A stretch of 31,442 nucleotides of DNA, from IMG/VR virus record IMGVR_UViG_3300036979_000244, positions 1 through 31,442 of that record; one strand, 5' to 3'. The first letter of the stretch is position 1, and every line of letters begins with the position of its first letter. Under the pieces are notes generated by a model. The model saw only the letters and a program-made list of their open reading frames with translations, ran no database searches and was not told the DNA's origin. The translations under genes were made by a program, and so were the position numbers. Of this stretch, positions 227-13,141 are shown one piece after another. This DNA comes from a virus.

Positions 227-316
227 TCACGGCAGGAAAATGATCAATAACATGATCAAAATTCCGACAGCACAAGCTAGATACATTTCGATGTCGTTGT
301 CGCTTTCGTGTTTCAC
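227..316 (-). CDS. 29-aa membrane peptide
   Basis: A GTG start is preceded by AGGTGG about 5 bases upstream and overlaps the stop of the 10-aa leader by four bases (GTGA). The peptide is a charged N-terminus (KHESDNDIE) followed by one hydrophobic helix (MYLACAVGILIMLLIIFLP) that reaches the C-terminus. It should be a single-pass membrane peptide. Its unit has a leftward promoter, a leader hairpin and an intrinsic terminator, so I think it is real although it is far below usual gene-caller limits. The in-frame extension upstream to 475 runs through the promoter and leader and looks like non-coding sequence. Function is unknown; superinfection exclusion, holin-like or other inner-membrane targeting roles are guesses. 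Confidence 0.5.
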   Translation of the reverse strand: MKHESDNDIEMYLACAVGILIMLLIIFLP

Positions 317-345
317 GCTGCACCACCTGTCAAAGACGGTTTCAT
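313..345 (-). CDS. 10-aa leader peptide (MKPSLTGGAA)
   Basis: An ATG lies 9 bases after the AAGGA core of the conserved leader motif TTCTGAAAGGAATCAGA. The same motif precedes the ATG of the genes at 1072 and 1397 at the same distance, which is the main evidence that this start is used. The frame closes after ten codons with a TGA overlapping the GTG of the membrane-peptide gene, so translation of the two is probably coupled. No homology can be judged at this length. Confidence 0.4.
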   Translation of the reverse strand: MKPSLTGGAA

Positions 346-348
346 AGG

Positions 349-365
349 TCTGATTCCTTTCAGAA
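349..365 (-). promoter_or_regulatory. SD in a mini-hairpin loop (leader motif copy 1)
   Basis: On the minus strand TTCTGAAAGGAATCAGA forms a 5-bp stem (TCTGA/TCAGA) with AAGGAA, the SD, in the loop. Copies occur at 1056-1068 and 1378-1393. A GGA in a short hairpin loop over the SD is the classical form of a CsrA-binding translational operator. The link to the CsrA-like gene at 1767 is an inference. Confidence 0.5.
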
Positions 366-381
366 GCGGAACAATTTCCGC
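366..381 (-). other. leader hairpin, leftward transcript
   Basis: GCGGAA-ATTG-TTCCGC on the minus strand is a perfect 6-bp stem between the conserved box (389-406) and the SD motif. The rightward leader at 1033-1050 has a hairpin with a different sequence in the same place, so the structure rather than the sequence is shared. Confidence 0.45.
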
Positions 382-386
382 GACCT

Positions 387-415
387 ATCCTATATCGGCG
401 CAGGGGTTGTGGCAA
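387..415 (-). promoter_or_regulatory. leftward promoter with conserved 18-bp box
   Basis: The minus strand reads TTGCCA (410-415), a 17-bp spacer, then TAGGAT (387-392), a plausible sigma70 promoter. Overlapping it at 389-406 is CCCCTGCGCCGATATAGG, which matches CCCCTACGCCGATACAGG at 1001-1018 on the plus strand at 16 of 18 positions. The box may be an operator for a shared regulator or part of the promoter. Confidence 0.5.
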
Positions 416-444
416 CTGTAGCGATTCATCAAAAACATTTTGGG

Positions 445-486
445 AAAAAAGCAAGCGACCCCGTTGCGGGTGCATACGGGGTCGCT
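445..486 (-). terminator. second leftward intrinsic terminator
   Basis: AGCGACCCCG (454-463) pairs perfectly with CGGGGTCGCT (477-486) across a 13-base loop. On the minus strand the stem is followed by TGCTTTTTT. It lies upstream of the leftward promoter at 387-415, so it must end a different leftward transcript that comes from the gene-free region to its right. Confidence 0.7.
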
Positions 487-1000
487 ACGCTGCGGTTCGC
501 TGCGCGGCTTTGTTTTGCCAACGTGCCTTGCAGCGGTCAATCTGAGCGTGAGCAGCATACACGCGAATTGGGGAAATTCAACGCGGTCAGGCCGCAATGT
601 TGCACCGTCGCGGGACGGTCTGTATCCCGGCAGAATGGGTGCAGCGGTGACGCTGCTAGACGCGGAGATTGACCCTACTCCGCGCACCAGCGAAAGTTGG
701 TGGCTCCCGCACGATGGAAGCCGTGACCCGCAAAATGGTGGAAATCGTGCCTATGGGATACCTCGCTGCGGCTCCGTGCGGCTGTGATTTCCCGTGACCT
801 CAATGCGCTGGGGTCATGGTGTTCCTGCATTTCACCATGCAACTGCAAACGCCGTAGGCGGCGAGTGCGCCGCGCAGCGGTGCAACTGTTTGGGTCGAAT
901 CTTTGGTGGACGTGACCCGCCCCCCGCTGGGGCCATCCAAAAAGCCCAAAGCGGGGTGGCGGTAAATAGAAAAAGTTTCAAAAAACTCTTCTGTGTACTT
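487..1000. other. gene-free structured region
   Basis: No reading frame here looks like protein on either strand. The region holds several inverted repeats: GGAAATC (740-746) with GATTTCC (786-792); CATGGTG (815-821) with CACCATG (833-839); and a long arm around 917-962 in which a CCGCCCCCCGCT-like sequence pairs with AGCGGGGTGGCGG, TGGG pairing with CCCA inside it. CCGTGACC-like words recur near 721, 793 and 911. It may hold a leftward non-coding RNA ending at the 445-486 terminator, or a replication origin. Neither can be shown from sequence alone. Confidence 0.4.
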
Positions 1001-1050
1001 CCCCTACGCCGATACAGGTGTACAATCATCGCGTCGGGAATGAACCCGAC
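1001..1050 (+). promoter_or_regulatory. rightward early promoter region: conserved box, -10 and leader hairpin
   Basis: 1001-1018 is the second copy of the 18-bp box found in the leftward leader. TACAAT at 1021-1026 is a fair -10, but no good -35 lies 16-18 bases upstream (CTTCCC), so activation may be needed or the box may supply it. A 6-bp hairpin, GTCGGG (1033-1038) with CCCGAC (1045-1050), follows, as in the leftward leader. Confidence 0.5.
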
Positions 1051-1055
1051 CTAAC

Positions 1056-1068
1056 CTGAAGGAATCAG
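1056..1068 (+). promoter_or_regulatory. SD in a mini-hairpin loop (leader motif copy 2)
   Basis: CTGA-AGGAA-TCAG puts the SD of the 1072 gene in a 5-base loop, 7-8 bases before the ATG. It is one of three copies of the same leader motif. Confidence 0.55.
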
Positions 1069-1071
1069 AAC

Positions 1072-1311
1072 ATGGCACACACTTGGACTAACGACGCAGA
1101 GCAAACCGCACTCCGATTCATCGCCAGCGCATATGAAGCGTTGGCCGCGCAAACAAAGATTGGTTTGCAGCAGGCCGATGACTACAGCCATCGCGTGGCT
1201 GATCTCATCATCACCTATGGCGCGTATAAGGGTCATTGTGTGCGAGAGCAATGGTTAGAGCTGTGCGAAGCGCGGCGCGTTTGCAACGCCAACTACGCGA
1301 ACCTGAAATAA
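1072..1311 (+). CDS. small early protein, unknown
   Basis: The 79-aa soluble protein is the first rightward gene. The ATG follows the conserved leader motif, which fixes the start. It is rich in Ala, Glu and aromatic residues, looks wholly alpha-helical (for example ALRFIASAYEALAAQ and REQWLELCEARRV), and has three cysteines with no obvious zinc pattern. I do not recognise a family. Its place right behind the early promoter suggests a host-takeover or regulatory role, which is only a guess. Confidence 0.7.
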   Translation: MAHTWTNDAEQTALRFIASAYEALAAQTKIGLQQADDYSHRVADLIITYGAYKGHCVREQWLELCEARRVCNANYANLK

Positions 1312-1328
1312 CGACGATCACCCGTGAA

Positions 1329-1350
1329 CCTGTCCCCTACGGGGGACGGG
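1329..1350 (+). other. UACG-tetraloop hairpin in the 5' leader of the 1397 gene
   Basis: CCTGTCCCC-TACG-GGGGACGGG is a 9-bp stem with one T-G wobble closed by a UNCG-type tetraloop, an unusually stable RNA fold. No T-run follows, so it is not a terminator. A smaller stem (GGCGA/TCGCC, 1356-1368) comes next, then the SD motif. It may protect a processed 5' end or insulate the SD element. Confidence 0.6.
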
Positions 1351-1377
1351 CTACGGGCGACCGTCGCCTATTCGCAA

Positions 1378-1393
1378 TTCTGAAGGAATCAGA
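1378..1393 (+). promoter_or_regulatory. SD in a mini-hairpin loop (leader motif copy 3)
   Basis: TTCTGAAGGAATCAGA: TCTGA (1379-1383) pairs with TCAGA (1389-1393), loop AGGAA. It precedes the ATG at 1397 at the same spacing as the other two copies. Confidence 0.55.
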
Positions 1394-1396
1394 CCA

Positions 1397-1774
1397 ATGA
1401 ACAAGACACAAATCAAAGCCGCTGGCGCAGTCATTATTGCTGAGATGCAACCGCAACCACACACCGAAGATGTTGCGGTGGCGTTGTGGGTTGTAAAAAC
1501 GAAACTCCGCGAATACGACGAGCGTTCGGCAAAAGTTGGTGCGCGATGGACATCGCAAGACTTGAAAGTTGCAACGCAGAAATTGCAGCGCGTTCTAGAC
1601 GGCGACATTTGCGGCAACGCCGTTATCAAAGCGCAAAACGTACGCATGTACGCGCAGTATGTCTGCGAGGAATGCGGCAAGCATAAACCGGAATCTGAGA
1701 TGATTTCCGCTAGTGAAATTAGTTTGTGCAGGGGATGCGTTCAACCAGTAAGCAGCGAAGAACACCATGATTGA
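1397..1774 (+). CDS. small protein with C-terminal zinc ribbon
   Basis: This is a 125-aa protein. Residues 1-85 are helical and charged. Near residues 90-115 there are two CxxC pairs (CEEC and CRGC) about 20 residues apart, a likely zinc ribbon. The rest shows no enzyme motif, so nucleic-acid or protein binding is the best guess. The start is set by the leader motif 1378-1393. The 3' end overlaps the start of the CsrA-like gene by eight bases, implying joint translation. No named family is recognised. Confidence 0.75.
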   Translation: MNKTQIKAAGAVIIAEMQPQPHTEDVAVALWVVKTKLREYDERSAKVGARWTSQDLKVATQKLQRVLDGDICGNAVIKAQNVRMYAQYVCEECGKHKPESEMISASEISLCRGCVQPVSSEEHHD

Positions 1775-1970
1775 AACCAACAAACCAACATGCGTTGTGC
1801 TGACCGTCAATCACAATCGCGAAACACTCAACCTGCAAACGTCCGATGGCGAGGTAAAAATTCTGCTGTCTCGACGAACGTGCAACAAAACACAGGCCGT
1901 TATCTACGCGCCGAAATGCGTTCGCATTACGCGAGTGGCTACAGGAGGTAGCGATGAAACACACGATTGA
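1767..1970 (+). CDS. divergent CsrA/RsmA-like RNA-binding regulator
   Basis: The 67-aa protein follows the CsrA pattern: VLT then RETL at residues 11-21 (LTRxxGETL in CsrA), a GEVKI strand near 28-32, and IYAPKCVRITR at 46-56, matching the CsrA IxAPKxVxVHR signature. R56 corresponds to the key RNA-binding Arg44. The Arg pair 6/7 of E. coli CsrA is replaced by VNHNR, and a 3-residue insertion follows the first strand, so specificity may differ. CsrA proteins are dimers that bind GGA in hairpin loops over SDs and block or alter translation. Five nearby genes have that arrangement. A GCA-GGGGA-TGC element at 1728-1738, 28 bases upstream of the ATG, could serve autoregulation. The start overlaps the previous gene and has a weak SD. 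Confidence 0.6.
   Translation: MIETNKPTCVVLTVNHNRETLNLQTSDGEVKILLSRRTCNKTQAVIYAPKCVRITRVATGGSDETHD
1938..1952 (+). promoter_or_regulatory. SD in a hairpin loop (GCTAC-AGGAG-GTAGC)
   Basis: A perfect 5-bp stem holds AGGAG in the loop directly before the ATG at 1954. The sequence UACAGGAGGU is close to the known CsrA consensus (ACARGGAUGU-type). The 12-mer TACAGGAGGTAG recurs before the ERF gene at 2969-2980. Confidence 0.55.
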
Positions 1971-2295
1971 AGCCGTAACGTTGTTTGATGCAGCGGAATC
2001 GCAACGACGCAAAGAAATTGGTTGTGAACTTGCCGCAGCAGCTCGCAAACAAAAGCTGCAAGTTGCACAGGAAATTGCCAACGAACTGGCGAAGCAACAC
2101 GGCAGCGTTCACATGGATATGGTTGCTGCGGAGATGCTGAGCCGGGGCTGTGACCCAAACGAATTAGGGAACGCGGCAGGCACAATCTTCAAGGGGAAAC
2201 AATGGATGTGGACTGGCGAGTTCGTTGCGAGTCATCGCGTGTCACGGCATTCGGGCCTGTTGCGAGTGTGGCGAAAAACCACCCAACAAGATTGA
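1954..2295 (+). CDS. small phage protein with C-terminal FxGxxW...RVWR region
   Basis: This is a 113-aa protein. Residues 1-50 form a long charged helix (QRRKEIGCELAAAARKQK). Residues 52-80 read HMDMVAAEMLSRG then AAGTIFKGKQW. The C-terminus has tGEFVaSHRVSRHSGLLRVWR, a pattern common in uncharacterised phage early proteins that suggests a small winged-helix DNA-binding fold. The start is fixed by AGGAGG inside the hairpin 1938-1952, and the gene overlaps the CsrA-like gene end by 17 bases. Function unknown; it lies among recombination and early genes. Confidence 0.75.
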   Translation: MKHTIEAVTLFDAAESQRRKEIGCELAAAARKQKLQVAQEIANELAKQHGSVHMDMVAAEMLSRGCDPNELGNAAGTIFKGKQWMWTGEFVASHRVSRHSGLLRVWRKTTQQD

Positions 2296-2326
2296 GCGAC
2301 TGTCAACGGCAACGTACAACACCTGT

Positions 2327-2497
2327 ATGGAACCAAAAAAACACCATCGGCCACGATTGACTGATGACGTAGTGCAGGCAATTCGTGCGTTGAAACAAAC
2401 GGGAATGTCGCAAAAAGCAATTTCGTTGCAGTTGAAAATCAGCACCGCTGCCGTGTGCCGAATTTTGAAAGGCAACCGACATGCACAACGTCCTTGA
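2327..2497 (+). CDS. small helix-turn-helix protein
   Basis: The 56-aa basic protein contains one HTH unit: LTDDVVQAIRALKQTGMSQ then AISLQLKISTAAVCRILKG, like the C-terminal HTH of resolvases or sigma region 4. I chose the ATG at 2327. The frame is open back to a TTG at 2225, but that part lies over the conserved C-terminus of the previous gene in another frame. No good SD is visible before 2327, so the exact start is uncertain. It overlaps RusA by 17 bases. A DNA-binding regulator or RusA accessory is plausible. Confidence 0.6.
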   Translation: MEPKKHHRPRLTDDVVQAIRALKQTGMSQKAISLQLKISTAAVCRILKGNRHAQRP

Positions 2498-2909
2498 ATT
2501 TTTTGCTGCTGGGAAACCACGCCCACAAGGCAGCAAGCGATTGGTACGGCTCCGAAACGGTCGAACTGCAATGATTGATGCAGGCAAGGGGTTGAAGGAA
2601 TGGCGACACGCCATTGCTAAACAAGCCAGCAGACAAAAAACAACGTGGGATGGGGATGTGCGGGTCAATATGCTGTTTGTCTTTGCGCGACCGAAAGCCC
2701 ACTTTGACAGCAAGGGAGTGCTACGCGCAACGTCGCCAATTAGGCCAAGAAAACTTGACCTAGACAAGTTGGCGCGTGCCGTCTGTGACGCGCTTTCAGG
2801 TGTTGCGTACCTTGATGACAGACAGGTAGCGATGCTGTGTGCGGAACGCCGATACGTTGATTGGGACGAACCAAAGGAAGGCGTTCGGGTTGTTGTGCAA
2901 CCAATGTAG
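2481..2909 (+). CDS. rusA: RusA-family Holliday junction resolvase
   Basis: The 142-aa protein has the full RusA layout: an N-terminal strand with GKPRPQGSKR (11-20), a beta strand before a PKAHF segment (about 63-75), then the catalytic block LDLDKLARAVCDALSGVAYLDD ending in RQV (92-115). D93, D95 and D113 match the metal-binding acidic residues of the family. RusA dimers cut four-way junctions symmetrically and resolve recombination or replication intermediates before packaging. It is the last gene before the promoter at 2910, and its recombination partner is probably the ERF annealing protein just downstream. Confidence 0.92.
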   Translation: MHNVLEFFAAGKPRPQGSKRLVRLRNGRTAMIDAGKGLKEWRHAIAKQASRQKTTWDGDVRVNMLFVFARPKAHFDSKGVLRATSPIRPRKLDLDKLARAVCDALSGVAYLDDRQVAMLCAERRYVDWDEPKEGVRVVVQPM

Positions 2910-2938
2910 TTGCACCCTGCGAGATCGTAGGGTATACT
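2910..2938 (+). promoter_or_regulatory. sigma70-type promoter for the ERF-Dcm operon
   Basis: TTGCAC at 2910-2915, a 17-bp spacer, and TATACT at 2933-2938 make the best promoter match in the window. It starts one base after the rusA stop codon (TAG, 2907-2909). Confidence 0.8.
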
Positions 2939-2944
2939 GATCGC

Positions 2945-2961
2945 AGACGCATGGTGCGTCT
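2945..2961 (+). promoter_or_regulatory. dyad at the transcription start: operator or leader hairpin
   Basis: AGACGCA-TGG-TGCGTCT is a perfect 7-bp inverted repeat located where transcription from the 2910 promoter should begin (about 7 bases past the -10). It could be a repressor operator or a 5' hairpin in the mRNA. Confidence 0.5.
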
Positions 2962-2965
2962 ACAC

Positions 2966-2980
2966 ATTACAGGAGGTAGT
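2966..2980 (+). promoter_or_regulatory. SD in a hairpin loop (ATTAC-AGGAG-GTAGT)
   Basis: A 5-bp stem with one wobble pair holds AGGAG in the loop right before the ATG at 2982. It shares TACAGGAGGTAG with the 1954 leader, although this gene has its own promoter. Confidence 0.5.
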
Positions 2981-2981
2981 C

Positions 2982-3764
2982 ATGCAGACAAGTTCTAGCA
3001 TCGGTGCGCTGATTGCTGCGCTAGCAAAAGCGCAATCAGAAATCAAAAATCCTGCGTTGGACAAATTGCACCCGCATTTCAAGGGATTTCGTTATGCGTC
3101 TCTTGGATCGCACATTGACGCGATCCGCGAGTCGTTTAGCCGTCACGGGCTGGTGATTTCTCAAGGAATCAATAGCGAAGACGTTCGTGTGAGCGTTACC
3201 ACGATGATCGCGCACGCAAGCGGTGAATGGCTATCTAGCACGGTGGGCATGACCCTTGCAGAAAAGGCGACCGCGCAAAACCTTGGCGCGACCGTTACCT
3301 ACCTGCGTAGATACGCGCTCGCGTCAATGTGCCTGTTGACAGGCGACGATGACACCGACGCGGAAGAGGATCGCGTAGCGAAGCAACCACAGCAACGTGC
3401 CGTGGTGCGAGACGTGTTTGATTCAACACCAGTTGCAACGTCAAAGGCGACGTATGACAAACCAAAAAGCGCAAAGGCAACCACAGAAAAAAGCAAATGG
3501 CCGACGAGCGGAACCGACGTTGTAAAACCTGTCAAGGTCGTAAATCGCGATGGTGGTATGTGGGCCGTGCTTTGCAGTCACGCGACCGCTGGAAACGCTT
3601 GGGTGTGCGTCAACCAAGCGTTGATTCGTGGCGTTAGTGAGGGCGACAACATCGAATTGACGTGGCACACCAACGATGCTGGTGTGATCGTGGCATCGGA
3701 AATTGCAGAGCCGATGCAGTTTCGCGATGCAAAGGGTAACCCTGAAATTCCATTCTTCAAATGA
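2982..3764 (+). CDS. erf: ERF-family single-strand annealing protein
   Basis: This is a 260-aa protein. Residues 8-125 match the ERF core: ALIAALAKAQSEIKNPALDK, FRYASLGSHIDAIRESFSRHGL, HASGEWLSS, and NLGATVTYLRRYALASMCL followed by an acidic GDDDTDAEED tail (121-130). ERF proteins form rings on ssDNA and anneal complementary strands, used for circularisation or recombination-dependent replication. The middle (135-180) is Lys/Thr-rich and probably disordered, and residues 175-260 form a separate C-terminal beta-rich region. It has its own promoter, dyad and strong AGGAGG SD. Its stop overlaps the Dcm start by four bases. Confidence 0.88.
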   Translation: MQTSSSIGALIAALAKAQSEIKNPALDKLHPHFKGFRYASLGSHIDAIRESFSRHGLVISQGINSEDVRVSVTTMIAHASGEWLSSTVGMTLAEKATAQNLGATVTYLRRYALASMCLLTGDDDTDAEEDRVAKQPQQRAVVRDVFDSTPVATSKATYDKPKSAKATTEKSKWPTSGTDVVKPVKVVNRDGGMWAVLCSHATAGNAWVCVNQALIRGVSEGDNIELTWHTNDAGVIVASEIAEPMQFRDAKGNPEIPFFK

Positions 3765-5071
3765 CACCACCAAAACCAAAATCACCACAGCCGTTGCGAG
3801 TAGGCTCCATGTTTGCCGGAATCGGCGGATTTGACTTGGGATTTGAGCGAGCCGGATTTGAGGTCGTTTGGTGCATTGAATGGGACAAACACTCACAGGC
3901 CGTTTTGCGTAAGCGATTCCCAAATGTCACCATCTACGGCGACATTCGCGAGGTTGATGCCGCGCAGCTCGCGCCCGTCGATGTCGTGTGTGGTGGATTC
4001 CCGTGCCAAGATCTGTCAGTAGCAGGTAAACGAGCCGGATTGGCCGGCGAAAGGTCAGGGCTGTTCCATGACGCAATTCGACTTGTTCGGAAACTCAATC
4101 CCAAACTTCTCGTACTCGAAAATGTCCCCGGACTGCTGTCAAGTAATCAAGGACTCGACTTCGCCACCGTCCTCCGTGAAGTGGGCGAAGGCTGGAATTG
4201 TGCGGAGGTCGCGTGGCGAGTTTTGGACAGTCGATATTTCGGAGTGGCCCAACGACGGCGTAGAGTGTTTGTTGTCGCAGGTGCTAGAGAAGGTCACGCC
4301 GAACAAATACTTGCTTTCCAAGAAAGCGTGCGCTGGAATCCTGCGCCGAGCGGGAAAGCGCGGGAAGACGTTGCCGGAACAATTGCGGCTCGCTTTGGAA
4401 TCAGTCGCAACAACCCCGAGGAATGCGTAATTGGGGCTATTGATTGCAACATTCCTAAGCAACGCGCACAGAATGCTCAACAGGGTCATTACATCGCCTG
4501 TTTAGTTTCCTCGCAGGGCCAAGAGTGCCACAAGGAAAGCGGCGGCCCTGATAGAGATGAAACAGATTTGTCGGTGGCTCAAGCATTCCGCAAATCAAAG
4601 CGAGCGCAGTCATGCGAAGACGATGAAACATGGGTCGATGACGGACTTGCGAACACGCTCAACGGATTCGACACGGGAGACACGCGAACGACTCATGCGG
4701 TCGCGTACACGGTCGATATGCAGGCGTGCAAGGGCAACGCAAACATTGGCGATGGCAGCGTCAGCCCGACGCTGTGCAAGCCGAGCGGGAACGATGTTCA
4801 CGCCGTCGCGGGTGCGTTCTCATGCAAGGATCACGGAGCCGACGCATCCGCCGTCGCAACCTGCATGGTCGTTCGCCGCCTAACTCCCGTCGAGTGCGAG
4901 CGGCTTCAAGGATTCCCTGATGGTTGGACGCAAATAGGAACTGATGAGAAGCCGACAGCGGATACCCATAGATACAAGCAACTTGGAAACGCCGTCACAG
5001 TCAACGTTGCGGAGTGGATCGCGAAAAGAGCGCATGATGTGCTTGTCAAAGAGGTGAAACATGACCAATGA
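3761..5071 (+). CDS. dcm: DNA (cytosine-5) methyltransferase
   Basis: The 436-aa C5-methyltransferase has its motifs in order: motif I FAGIGGFDLGF (18-28, SAM binding), motif IV GGFPCQDLS with catalytic Cys82, motif VI ENV (120-122), motif VIII QRRRRVFVV (164-172), motif IX RRLTPVECERLQGFPDGW (372-389) and motif X QLGNAV (407-412). The target-recognition region (about 180-370) is long and carries DGLANTLN/DGSVSPTL-like repeats typical of phage enzymes; the target cannot be read from it. No restriction endonuclease neighbours it, so its likely role is protecting phage DNA from host restriction. Codon use shifts toward G/C-ending codons in the 3' part. Confidence 0.95.
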   Translation: MTPPKPKSPQPLRVGSMFAGIGGFDLGFERAGFEVVWCIEWDKHSQAVLRKRFPNVTIYGDIREVDAAQLAPVDVVCGGFPCQDLSVAGKRAGLAGERSGLFHDAIRLVRKLNPKLLVLENVPGLLSSNQGLDFATVLREVGEGWNCAEVAWRVLDSRYFGVAQRRRRVFVVAGAREGHAEQILAFQESVRWNPAPSGKAREDVAGTIAARFGISRNNPEECVIGAIDCNIPKQRAQNAQQGHYIACLVSSQGQECHKESGGPDRDETDLSVAQAFRKSKRAQSCEDDETWVDDGLANTLNGFDTGDTRTTHAVAYTVDMQACKGNANIGDGSVSPTLCKPSGNDVHAVAGAFSCKDHGADASAVATCMVVRRLTPVECERLQGFPDGWTQIGTDEKPTADTHRYKQLGNAVTVNVAEWIAKRAHDVLVKEVKHDQ

Positions 5072-9247: not shown

Positions 9248-12200
9248 ATGTGCGGAAACCGAGCGACATTTTCTAGAACCGAAACGAAGTATTTCGCAGG
9301 TGGAACCCAAGTTGAATCGGGGCAATTGCGCGAAATAACGGAAATGCAGTTTGCGCGTCTATTTCCGAATCGAAAAGACGGATACACCGCACAGGGCGGT
9401 GCAAAGCGAATGCCGCTAGATGAACGCGCATTGTGGCCCGAAGCACGTTGGCAACAGAGTTACACTGAACAGGCTCAAGCAGCAATCGAATCAACAAAGT
9501 CGTGGTCAGCAAAAACCGCGAATGAGGTGCGTGCAGCAGGTGGTGTTGATGCGTGGGTGCGACTACAGATGACAAATCTGTATTCCGATCATCCGTCAAT
9601 CGGCATCCCAAAACAACGATTCCTTGTGATGAATTCGTCGCCACCGCAGGCTATCGACCGCGTGGTGAAATGGGAGAAGACCGAAACACCAACATCGTGT
9701 GGCGCACGGTGTCGCATGGCGCGTGGCCCAATGTGCGATTGCGTTTGTGAAGGGAAGAATCACGGCGCAGGCGCAACGATGTCACGGTCGCGATTTGATC
9801 GTCAAACAGACCTAAAGAAGACGAAGCAACTAGTTTCCGATGCCTCTCAAACAATCGAAAGGTTGAAGGACAAACTGAAGCGGCAGCGTGCGTTAGATTT
9901 AGATGGCGATAGTTCCTCATCCACGCAAAGAACGGAAGACACTCTTGACCTCTTGTTGACCCAATACCGCGCTGTTGCAGCATTAGTAAACGAAAACGCT
10001 GCGTGGCAGGAAATCGTGACCGCAGTTGAAAAACTGCGGTCTACGCTCCAAGTCGCTCAAAGCGAGTCAGCGCGGTTTTCGCGAGGGTTCAAAGGTTTTG
10101 TTGACCCGTGGGCGGCTATGTCGCCTGATGATCGACGCGAGGCAGGAAAACTGCAAATAGCGGCGTTGAAGGCAATGCCGAGTTCGCCGCGTCAGAAGGA
10201 GATTCGCGTCAAGTTGAACGCGATTCTCGCCAAGTACGGACTTGATAAGTCGCCTGAAGAAAGAAACATGAAATCGGCCCGTAGGGCTGCAAGGAAAACA
10301 ACGATGGCAAATCGAACGAATGACTCATTCACGGTGCAACTGCGATGGAATGGAATGGGTGCGCCACAGCATCGTGTTACTTTCAAGACACTCGCGCAGG
10401 CAGAAAAGGAGGCCGAACGGCTTCATGCTCTGTATGGAAGTCTTGGGAATCCTGAGTTCCCGACGATGAAGGGAATTGTGGAAATTGAGGTTTCCGATGC
10501 AAATCAGCCTTGGAAAAATCGAACCGTCCGATGGTTTGCATCCCGCCCCGGCGCGAAGGCAACAATGGCAAATGAACTTTTCCGAGTCCGCATTGGAAAC
10601 GCCACGGTTTCCACAACAGAGTTCATGCAGTATGCGCGGCGATTTATTCCGAATGTCAGCCGCAACGATTTTCTTCCCGACATGGTTGAAAAAGTCAATC
10701 AAGCGTTGGCCGCAAGGGGTGATTCAATTCGTGTGTCTATCCTTATGAAAGGACAAGATTTCTCCCGCTACAGCGCGAAGGCGGCGTTTGGACAAAAGGA
10801 TGCGTACACGACTAGCCTCAATAAACCAGTTACCGTAGCAAATTGCAACAGGATGATGAACATTGCATCTGAAGCGATTCAATATGCAAAATCCGTTGGA
10901 GACAACGAGCTGCTTGATCTTGCGGAAGAGGTAGGAATTGAATGCCAAGCGATAAAGTCTCGTGCGTCCCGCCCCGGCGCGAAGGCGGCGTTTGCTGCAA
11001 ACGATGTTGATTTGTGGAACTTGTTGGCTAAAAGCGATGTTGTGCTTGCGCGACAAAACGCTAACGAGCTTGCCACGTTGAAAAAATACGCGCAAAAAGC
11101 CTTACGAATGCCGAACTTTACGCCACCTGCGATGGCGCAGCATGGGCCGAGTTTGCATCAAATCGCAACGGACACGCTTGCAGACATCCAAGCATTTGAG
11201 CAGGCGGCGTATCGCTATCGCAATCGCGCACCGTGGGCAGGATCTAGGGCAAAAGCGGCATTCGACGCATTCGATCCGTTCACCGCGCCAGCCAAACCCG
11301 CTAGTTGGGACGGCAAGCGAATCAATCTCAACAACAAGATGTACAAGGTCGAACCTAACGGGGACGTGTACGACCTGTACGACATGAACACAAACAAGAA
11401 GGCCAAATCAATGACCGCAGAGCAGTTGTATCGTGCGTGGGAGCAGGGACGTATCAAAACGATCTACAAACGCTCCGGCGCGAAGGCGTCGTTTGATAAA
11501 AACACCATCGTGGAATCGTGGACGAGTCCAAAGGGGACACGATACGAGGCTGGCCTATGGCAGTCTTACGGAGGTACATACCAGCCATATGTCACCGCGA
11601 CCTACAGCGACGGTGGAGAACAGCTGATGACCCTGAATGAAAAATCCTACGCAACGGAAAGCGGGGCGCGAAAGCGACTCGCGGCAGTTGTGTCCCGCAT
11701 GAAAAGTAACTACTCCCGCGTTGGCGCAAAGGCAAAGTTTGAAATCAAGGTTGGTGATCGTGTGCTAGGTAGCCTTGCTGTTCAAGGCGGTGCTGGCGTG
11801 ATGGGTACGGTATTCAAGATTGAAGACGGCTACGCGCATATCCAAGCAGATCCAAGCGTGGACGATGAGCGTTGGGGCCGCAAGACCTACAAAGTACCTT
11901 TGCGGCTTGTTACGCGGATGTCTCGCTCCGGCGCAGCGGCGGCGTTCGGCAACGAGGGCATTCAAAAGGGCTTGTCACGTTTGCTGAAGGAAACGGGATT
12001 CAAAGCGATGTCGCAGGACATTCTGAAGGGTGGATCAGACGCGGAAACGCTTCGTAAGTACATCCGCGTGTTGAAGTCAAAGATGTCACCGTTGCATGGC
12101 GATGAACGTGCCGCACAACTTTTGGACACGCTAGATCGACAACTGATGTCTCGTTCCGGCGCGAAGGAGAAGTTCGGACAGGTAACGCAGTTACTTGGAT

Positions 12201-13141
12201 ACATTGAATCGCAGGCACATGATCAGCGAGAACTTGCAAAATCGAATCTTCGCAAGCTTGCAGAGAACATCGGGCGGATTGATCACACCGACGCGGAGTG
12301 GAAACATTTCGTGCGCGTAGCGCATTCGCTGGGGTTCACCGACTCACAAATCGCAGGGTTTTCTCGTCGTGGCGCAAAGGAGGCGTTCGCAGAGCCGCAG
12401 TCATTCAGAGATTTGGTTGCCTATGCGCGATTCCATTTCAATCTCAATTTCTATCAGGCACAGGATGTTGCAGGTCGTGCCGGAATCATGTTGAAGATGC
12501 ACCCAAACAAATATCCGGTGGAGATGGTGATGCAGGAAGCATTGAAACGATCCAATGCGGCATTGACCGCAGAACAAAAAGCCCCTGATTACAGAGTGGG
12601 AAGCAACATCAAAGGAAACCCAACTATGCGTGATAGTTCGCTAGTGATGTCCCGCTCTAGCGCGAAGGCAAGTGTTGCAGAGGAACTGCACAAGGCATCA
12701 ACGGAAGGCCGATTGATGAAGCAAAATGTTGCCGGAACGAAAACCACGGCATTCAACCGCATTGGTGAAGAGGAAGCATTTGGATTAGGCGCGGCATCGG
12801 AGTCCGATGACCCGTCGAAGGACGAGAATTTGATTGCGCTTGCGAACCGCGTAGGTCGCGAACACACCGTCAATCTGTTCAAGTGCTGGAGCGAAGGCAA
12901 GGCAAGTATGCAACGAGCTGCGACGATGTTCAGTGCAAACATGTACTACTCCGTTCAGGCAACCGTTGGAAACGATGCTGTAGGAGAACGAACTGCCCAA
13001 ACGGTTGAAGAGGCAAAACGATTTGCATACAGCATGTTGGATGCCACGAAACAAAATGCCCGAGGGAAAACTGTAGTTGTGGACGTAATTCCTGTAAAAA
13101 ATTACGAACCGCAAGCATCGGTGCTGACATTGCGCGGATGA
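9248..13141 (+). CDS. 1297-aa modular protein with repeated SRxGAKAxF linkers (putative polyprotein)
   Basis: This is the largest gene, between TerL and portal. Residues 1-177 include a Cys/His cluster, C151-x3-C155-x7-C163-x-C-x-C167 then NHG (171-173), likely zinc-binding. From residue 178 about 14 copies of (F/Y/M)SRxGAKAxF recur at roughly 178, 277, 343, 430, 505, 574, 664, 740, 822, 891, 967, 1038, 1134 and 1169, spaced 35-99 residues apart. The segments between them differ from each other: a coiled coil (about 187-276), a VGDRVLG...YAHIQ SH3/KOW-like domain (about 833-885), several helical bundles and a C-terminal domain (1180-1297). I recognise no whole-length homologue. Its place among head genes suggests an internal head or ejection protein, possibly cut into mini-proteins at the linkers. 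The start at 9248 has no strong SD. Confidence 0.85.
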   Translation: MCGNRATFSRTETKYFAGGTQVESGQLREITEMQFARLFPNRKDGYTAQGGAKRMPLDERALWPEARWQQSYTEQAQAAIESTKSWSAKTANEVRAAGGVDAWVRLQMTNLYSDHPSIGIPKQRFLVMNSSPPQAIDRVVKWEKTETPTSCGARCRMARGPMCDCVCEGKNHGAGATMSRSRFDRQTDLKKTKQLVSDASQTIERLKDKLKRQRALDLDGDSSSSTQRTEDTLDLLLTQYRAVAALVNENAAWQEIVTAVEKLRSTLQVAQSESARFSRGFKGFVDPWAAMSPDDRREAGKLQIAALKAMPSSPRQKEIRVKLNAILAKYGLDKSPEERNMKSARRAARKTTMANRTNDSFTVQLRWNGMGAPQHRVTFKTLAQAEKEAERLHALYGSLGNPEFPTMKGIVEIEVSDANQPWKNRTVRWFASRPGAKATMANELFRVRIGNATVSTTEFMQYARRFIPNVSRNDFLPDMVEKVNQALAARGDSIRVSILMKGQDFSRYSAKAAFGQKDAYTTSLNKPVTVANCNRMMNIASEAIQYAKSVGDNELLDLAEEVGIECQAIKSRASRPGAKAAFAANDVDLWNLLAKSDVVLARQNANELATLKKYAQKALRMPNFTPPAMAQHGPSLHQIATDTLADIQAFEQAAYRYRNRAPWAGSRAKAAFDAFDPFTAPAKPASWDGKRINLNNKMYKVEPNGDVYDLYDMNTNKKAKSMTAEQLYRAWEQGRIKTIYKRSGAKASFDKNTIVESWTSPKGTRYEAGLWQSYGGTYQPYVTATYSDGGEQLMTLNEKSYATESGARKRLAAVVSRMKSNYSRVGAKAKFEIKVGDRVLGSLAVQGGAGVMGTVFKIEDGYAHIQADPSVDDERWGRKTYKVPLRLVTRMSRSGAAAAFGNEGIQKGLSRLLKETGFKAMSQDILKGGSDAETLRKYIRVLKSKMSPLHGDERAAQLLDTLDRQLMSRSGAKEKFGQVTQLLGYIESQAHDQRELAKSNLRKLAENIGRIDHTDAEWKHFVRVAHSLGFTDSQIAGFSRRGAKEAFAEPQSFRDLVAYARFHFNLNFYQAQDVAGRAGIMLKMHPNKYPVEMVMQEALKRSNAALTAEQKAPDYRVGSNIKGNPTMRDSSLVMSRSSAKASVAEELHKASTEGRLMKQNVAGTKTTAFNRIGEEEAFGLGAASESDDPSKDENLIALANRVGREHTVNLFKCWSEGKASMQRAATMFSANMYYSVQATVGNDAVGERTAQTVEEAKRFAYSMLDATKQNARGKTVVVDVIPVKNYEPQASVLTLRG
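9779..12787 (+). repeat. dispersed in-frame linker repeat, about 14 copies
   Basis: The DNA of the linkers is conserved as well as the peptide: TCCCGCCCCGGCGCGAAGGC is identical at 10541-10560 and 10967-10986, and GGCGCGAAGGC-like cores recur near 11477, 12160 and 12652. Degenerate copies (near 9779, 10076, 10274, 12752) keep only part of the motif. In two copies the GAAGG or AAGGA word sits 5-9 bases before an in-frame ATG encoding MAN, which could act as internal start sites. Confidence 0.8.

Follow-up and report, generated by a model that had tools for sequence, protein, structure and literature searches.

A far-diverged CsrA-like core gene and a repeated early-gene leader family in a group of uncultivated phages

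We analyzed a viral DNA of 31,442 nucleotides (nt), IMG/VR record IMGVR_UViG_3300036979_000244 (positions 1 to 31,442; the whole stretch is called the window), together with its relatives, which form a family of uncultivated environmental phages. A sequence-only reading of the window had proposed that a gene for a CsrA-like protein of 67 amino acids (aa) and five nearby hairpins, each with the GGA of a Shine-Dalgarno (SD) sequence in its loop, make up a post-transcriptional regulon. Our comparisons bear out a core gene of the CsrA superfamily and a leader family shared among early genes, in part of which a hairpin loop presents the GGA of the SD, but not a hairpin that universally accompanies the protein. 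Taken together, the sequence comparisons support a shared early-gene leader regulon; that the CsrA-like protein may control these leaders is plausible.

Because the 67-aa protein as a query retrieved nothing useful from viral contigs, INPHARED phages, Pfam, PHROGs, or PDB, relatives were reached by way of the ERF and capsid proteins. The major capsid protein retrieved 73 related viral loci; it had no match in INPHARED, and a genome scan with it found nothing. By direct search, a homologue of the 67-aa protein was located in 17 of 47 related records. Counting the window, a profile built from the homologues recovered the gene in 24 of 30 genomes, including every record of at least 31 kb (20/20); near-completeness was judged by length only. 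The six genomes without the gene are shorter or were only partly fetched. The CsrA-like gene is a core gene of this phage family and is placed in the early block, near the RusA and ERF genes.

The CsrA signature that the sequence-only reading had described in this gene is present, and it is the family, not the window protein alone, that matches CsrA. On its own, the window protein had no CsrA match at E values up to 10 in any of Pfam, PHROGs, and PDB. When a profile of 16 relatives (A1) was compared with all PDB sequences, the top 11 matches were all CsrA, RsmA, or RsmN chains, with best E values of 2.2e-5 for RsmF/RsmN (PDB entries 4k59 and 4kji) and 3.2e-5 for CsrA. Profile-profile comparison gave a probability of 85 (E = 5.9e-6) against Escherichia coli CsrA and of 89.5 (E = 2e-6) against 22 Planctomycetota CsrAs plus that of E. 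coli. One relative (G034) scored 27.5 bits in the Pfam CsrA family (PF02599), for which the cut-off is 27; other relatives score under the cut-off. With two AlphaFold2 (AF2) monomer models (predicted local distance difference test score of ~75), CsrA/RsmE chains came first in Foldseek, but with E values of >0.1. In VIA-align, a CsrA chain likewise came first for the window model, with a Z score of only 4.5, which is too low to settle the fold alone. Based on the profile, profile-profile, Pfam, and AF2 matches of the family, we regard the 67-aa protein as a divergent, strongly altered member of the CsrA superfamily.

Arg6 and Arg44 are key RNA contacts of CsrA in published mutagenesis. The C-terminal half of the phage protein aligns gap-free to strands beta3 to beta5 of CsrA, and both Ala36-Pro37 and the Arg44 equivalent in beta5 are invariant among the aligned relatives (16/16). 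Extra residues lie in the beta1-beta2 region, and the position of Arg6 (beta1, LxLT/S-R) hangs on the placement of a one-residue insertion. The residue directly after the T5 equivalent is never Arg, and 10 of the 16 relatives have Arg at the next position. A loss of Arg6 across the whole family was considered and then dropped after global profile alignment, in which it depends on gap placement; we assert the loss for the window member only. As a separate observation, the proteins of G010, G011, G012, G017, G025, G044, and G046 carry a cysteine-rich (CRCG-type) insert between the strands equivalent to beta3 and beta4, which is possibly metal binding.

The leader family was recognized from the region before the start at 1072, which is repeated several times per genome in relatives. 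A covariance model (R1), built from 15 leader copies (alignment A5), retrieved ~49 copies at E values of <1e-3 within the phage family and more in other contigs. The order of elements in this cassette is constant: -35 and -10 boxes with a common spacer element, a 5' hairpin a few bases past the expected transcription start, a linker, the SD, and ATG. The promoter is sigma70-like. In the helix of the 5' hairpin, 100% of cells are paired and 4/6 pairs show double changes, with some U-G pairs. The U-G pairs and double changes favor an RNA structure over a DNA palindrome. This hairpin is nearly universal in the leaders, usually without a GGA in its loop, while the second hairpin, over the SD, is dispensable. 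In mapped genomes, the leaders occupy the early block, close to RusA, ERF, and the CsrA-like gene, and do not precede the capsid gene.

In 21 of 59 distinct leaders, which are related by descent and are not independent, the SD falls in a GGA loop whose stem has about 4 bp or more. A null model based on flank recombination gave a mean of 5.5 and a maximum of 14 in 2,000 trials; the value of 21 was never reached. The stems vary by lineage (CTGA/TCAG, CAGG/CCTG, TCAAA/TTTGA, CAAA/TTTG, CGAAA/TTTCG, and ACGAA/TTCGT), and the stem is kept through a register shift in the orthologous leaders of G027 and G029.

Within the window, all five hairpins of the sequence-only reading are in the sequence (Table 1). 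The leaders at 345 (minus strand), 1072, and 1397 are members of the multicopy early cassette or look like it. The hairpin of the leftward leader has a six-base loop and is thus not identical to those at 1072 and 1397; the leftward first gene of G001 has TTCTGA-AGGAA-TCAGAA. Conservation in relatives holds for the leader type of 1072 but not for the stems at 1954 and 2982, which are absent in the orthologous genes, most of which keep a GGA-bearing SD. Orthologues of 1397 have the same kind of leader in G003 and lack it in G001 and G004. With two of the five hairpins private to the window phage, a five-leader regulon in this phage is not supported. At 2982, the stem includes a G-U pair, and minimum-energy folding of the leader does not give it; a further hairpin (2945-2961) precedes it, and the R1 match at 2927-2984 reaches only 20.3 bits.

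Among a curated set of 15 starts with a GGA-containing SD, five reach the stem threshold, compared with 1.27 expected from shuffled left flanks (p = 0.0026) and 1.04 from random flanks (p = 0.0012); an automatic gene call, which misses the leftward start at 345, gave four hairpins versus 1.65 expected (p = 0.05), and because the stems were picked after looking, all of these p values are optimistic and the effect is modest. Later genes had been said to lack such stems. This is so for the starts at 5061 and 17608, whereas 5568 (TGTTC-AAGGA-GGACA), along with 5318, does form a GGA hairpin under a looser loop rule.

In the window, a conserved structured noncoding RNA occupies the stretch that separates the divergent leaders. 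Its sequence is conserved in 15 genomes, and many of the length differences in the region are not divisible by three. In the consensus fold of the core, 34/62 predicted pairs show double changes. A subdomain modeled as R2 has 97.7% of cells paired (71% when shuffled), double changes at 19/22 pairs, and G-U cells that favor the plus strand. Of 66 other viral loci selected by pattern, 44 contain R2, as do 18 loci of the family, for ~60 phage loci. Rfam scans of three members of this RNA at permissive thresholds retrieved no credible family; GOLLD, ROOL, and other large RNAs were unmatched. The RNA adjoins the CsrA-like gene and in this resembles the antagonist RNAs CsrB and RsmZ, but it is not GGA enriched (6 GGA observed versus 6.1 expected in the window; 2 to 9 per core across members versus 3.6 to 6.1 expected). 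By these counts, the RNA does not resemble a CsrB-type GGA sponge, and that reading was rejected.

The structured RNA also bears on the host. A genome pattern scan for it gave 41 matches; one alone, a Planctomycetota locus, fits the R2 model. This copy, in chromosome CP053450.1 (L275, 449-554, minus strand, 56 bits), adjoins an AlpA-like helix-turn-helix gene and a tRNA-Leu. The locus was rejected as an intact prophage of the phage family, its neighborhood containing no homologues of window proteins. A contig of a Planctomycetota genome (L297), which could be mis-binned, encodes homologues of the capsid (36% identity), portal (30%), and terminase (24%) proteins. Because of the RNA copy in L275 and the three homologues in L297, the phage host is probably a member of the Planctomycetota, a placement in which we have moderate confidence. 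CsrA is present in 38/99 sampled Planctomycetota genomes. Separately, we note that genomes G096, G117, G072, and G135 of this phylum have 9 to 17 CsrA-family matches.

We tentatively propose that the phage CsrA-like protein may act on the early leaders as the phage's own translational regulator. The proposal starts from the homology of the protein, its core status, the common leader family, and the conserved hairpins with their position over the SD, all of which are observed. The early region encodes the CsrA-like protein, and nearby genes would be expressed from the repeated early cassette. Their transcripts would open with a short leader, in which a stable 5' hairpin precedes a linker and the SD; in several lineages, including that of the window, a second small hairpin carries the SD in its loop. 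The protein would accumulate early, form dimers, and bind RNA with specificity for GGA, so that occupation of the SD in cassette leaders would lower translation. As a result, the products of early first genes would peak and then stop. In the window phage, the likeliest targets would be the leaders of 1072, 345 (minus strand), and 1397, with 1954 and 2982 as weak candidates.

Several findings weigh against regulation of the leaders by this protein. The window protein has Val and Asn at the two candidate positions for Arg6 and, thus, no Arg under either placement, and neither AF2 model contains a C-terminal helix, a region in which both are of low confidence. In G035, G042, G020/G021, and G010/G044, the CsrA-like protein and the leader are present and the GGA-loop stem is missing. 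SDs in general tend to contain GGA, and the excess counted above was obtained from leaders of common descent. No genome-wide excess of GGA hairpins was found in most genomes; the window (p = 0.05), G024, and G027 are the exceptions. Finally, the common promoter element could provide an alternative basis for coregulation.

That element, ACCCT...AGGGT, lies between the -35 and -10 boxes and is common to the early promoters. It is more palindromic than shuffled sequence (4.52 versus 3.87; 4.63 when recombined), and a coordinated-change test on the palindrome found no covariation, though it is conserved. Such behavior is expected of a DNA site, and we consider the spacer a candidate DNA operator. 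The leaders may accordingly be read as a module for transcription and mRNA stability, with the CsrA-like gene as a neighbor and not a regulator: a phage or host protein would bind the promoter element, the 5' hairpin would protect the transcript, and the second hairpin would present the SD. The shared promoter boxes fit this account, as do the near universality of a 5' hairpin that usually has no loop GGA and the dispensability of the second hairpin. We nevertheless consider it unlikely; it leaves unexplained why stems that differ by lineage are placed exactly around GGA and why a relative of CsrA is a core early gene. The protein may instead target the mRNAs of the host or its Csr network (e.g., through a shift in metabolism or mixed dimers with host CsrA), and not the phage leaders. 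Its conservation where GGA-loop hairpins are missing agrees with a role of this kind, Planctomycetota often carry CsrA (in some cases up to 17 matches), and the CsrA genes of other phages have been proposed to act on their hosts (PMC7366521; PMC11879866). With a host that is not certain and canonical RNA-site residues that are unequally kept (the Arg44 equivalent is kept, and Arg6 is missing in the window member), action on the host appears somewhat unlikely.

Frequent short dyads and SDs that contain GGA could also yield the window hairpins by chance. In favor of chance are the lack of conservation at 1954 and 2982, the many genomes without an excess, and the stems that 5318 and 5568 form under the looser rule. 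Against it are the count in the window (5/15 versus about 1.0 to 1.3 expected) and the recurrence of leader hairpins with differing stems in several lineages. For the window hairpins as a whole, chance is highly improbable; it is disfavored for leaders of the 1072 type and likely for 2982. At the other extreme, these phages may possess a complete Csr-like circuit, comprising a derived CsrA whose RNA-contact surface is changed, the leader family as its targets, the structured RNA as antagonist or cofactor, and a recognition rule other than a plain GGA loop. We judge such a circuit improbable.

Further features of the window are included in Table 1. The leftward leader is followed by a mini-open reading frame (mini-ORF) that, by comparison with G001, is probably what remains of a first gene that was deleted (~124 aa in G001), with its leader retained. 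After it comes an ORF for a 29-aa membrane peptide (227-316, minus strand), which has a counterpart in G001. Following the terminase, a 1,297-aa protein (9248-13141) contains nine spaced copies of an SR-x-GAKA-x-F-like motif, and like repeats occur in several relatives. It has no Pfam match; from its sequence, it looks like a concatenation of small domains and is perhaps processed.

Table 1. Features of the window discussed in the text, with positions, strand, and basis of assignment
Feature	Position	Strand	Basis
10-codon mini-ORF	313-345	-	Sequence; comparison with leftward gene of G001
SD hairpin TCTGA-AAGGAA-TCAGA, leftward leader (ATG at 345)	349-364	-	Sequence
5' hairpin GCGGAA-ATTG-TTCCGC, leftward leader	366-381	-	Sequence; predicted fold
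Conserved structured RNA, core	544-845 (recognizable ~430-960)	+	15-genome alignment
Subdomain modeled as R2, 93 nt	659-751	+	Covariation
Putative early promoter: -35-like TTCCCC, -10 TACAAT (1021-1026), spacer CCCTAC...AGG	998-1026	+	Aligned with 33 other leader promoters
Leader 5' hairpin GTCGGG-AATGAA-CCCGAC	1033-1050	+	R1 match at 1015-1074, 62.9 bits
SD hairpin CTGA-AGGAA-TCAG over start 1072	1056-1068	+	Sequence; same architecture in relatives
SD hairpin TCTGA-AGGAA-TCAGA over start 1397	1379-1393	+	Sequence
CsrA-like protein, 67 aa	1767-1970	+	Family profile matches CsrA chains; one relative above Pfam cut-off; AF2 models
SD hairpin GCTAC-AGGAG-GTAGC over start 1954	1938-1952	+	Sequence; stable (-7.5 kcal/mol, z = -4.5)
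Possible SD hairpin ATTAC-AGGAG-GTAGT over start 2982 (ERF recombinase)	2966-2980	+	Sequence

Like CsrA/RsmA (PF02599), the phage protein is small and beta rich and has the Ala-Pro pair and the Arg44 equivalent, and its family profile matches CsrA in PDB. Unlike them, it has extra residues between beta1 and beta2, no predicted C-terminal helix, and, in one subclade, the cysteine-rich insert, and its window member lacks Arg6 and falls below Pfam detection. RsmN/RsmF of Pseudomonas, which are the best PDB matches of the profile, are likewise divergent CsrAs. RsmN departs from the usual topology and contains an inserted helix, whereas no helix is predicted in the phage protein. Phage-borne csrA is itself already known: alleles have been reported in 30 phages (Sobrero and Valverde 2020; PMC7366521), of which the listed Pseudomonas phage CsrAs are near-canonical (63% identity; PMC7366521), and knock-down of the PTXU04 homologue (PTXU04_00028) substantially reduced plaques (PMC11879866). 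The window phage shares with these homologues (including PHROG 9500) a csrA-type gene in a phage genome, but its version is far more diverged, is core to the whole family, and is found in an early block alongside the leader family.

What is new here is a far-diverged core CsrA, the linkage of this gene with a leader family that recurs among the early genes, and the structured RNA. With strong covariation, a presence in dozens of uncultivated phage contigs, and no Rfam match, this RNA merits a study of its own. Because the candidate target leaders of this family are multicopy and comparable across genomes, the question of what a phage CsrA regulates lends itself to direct tests with a single small protein and short RNAs.

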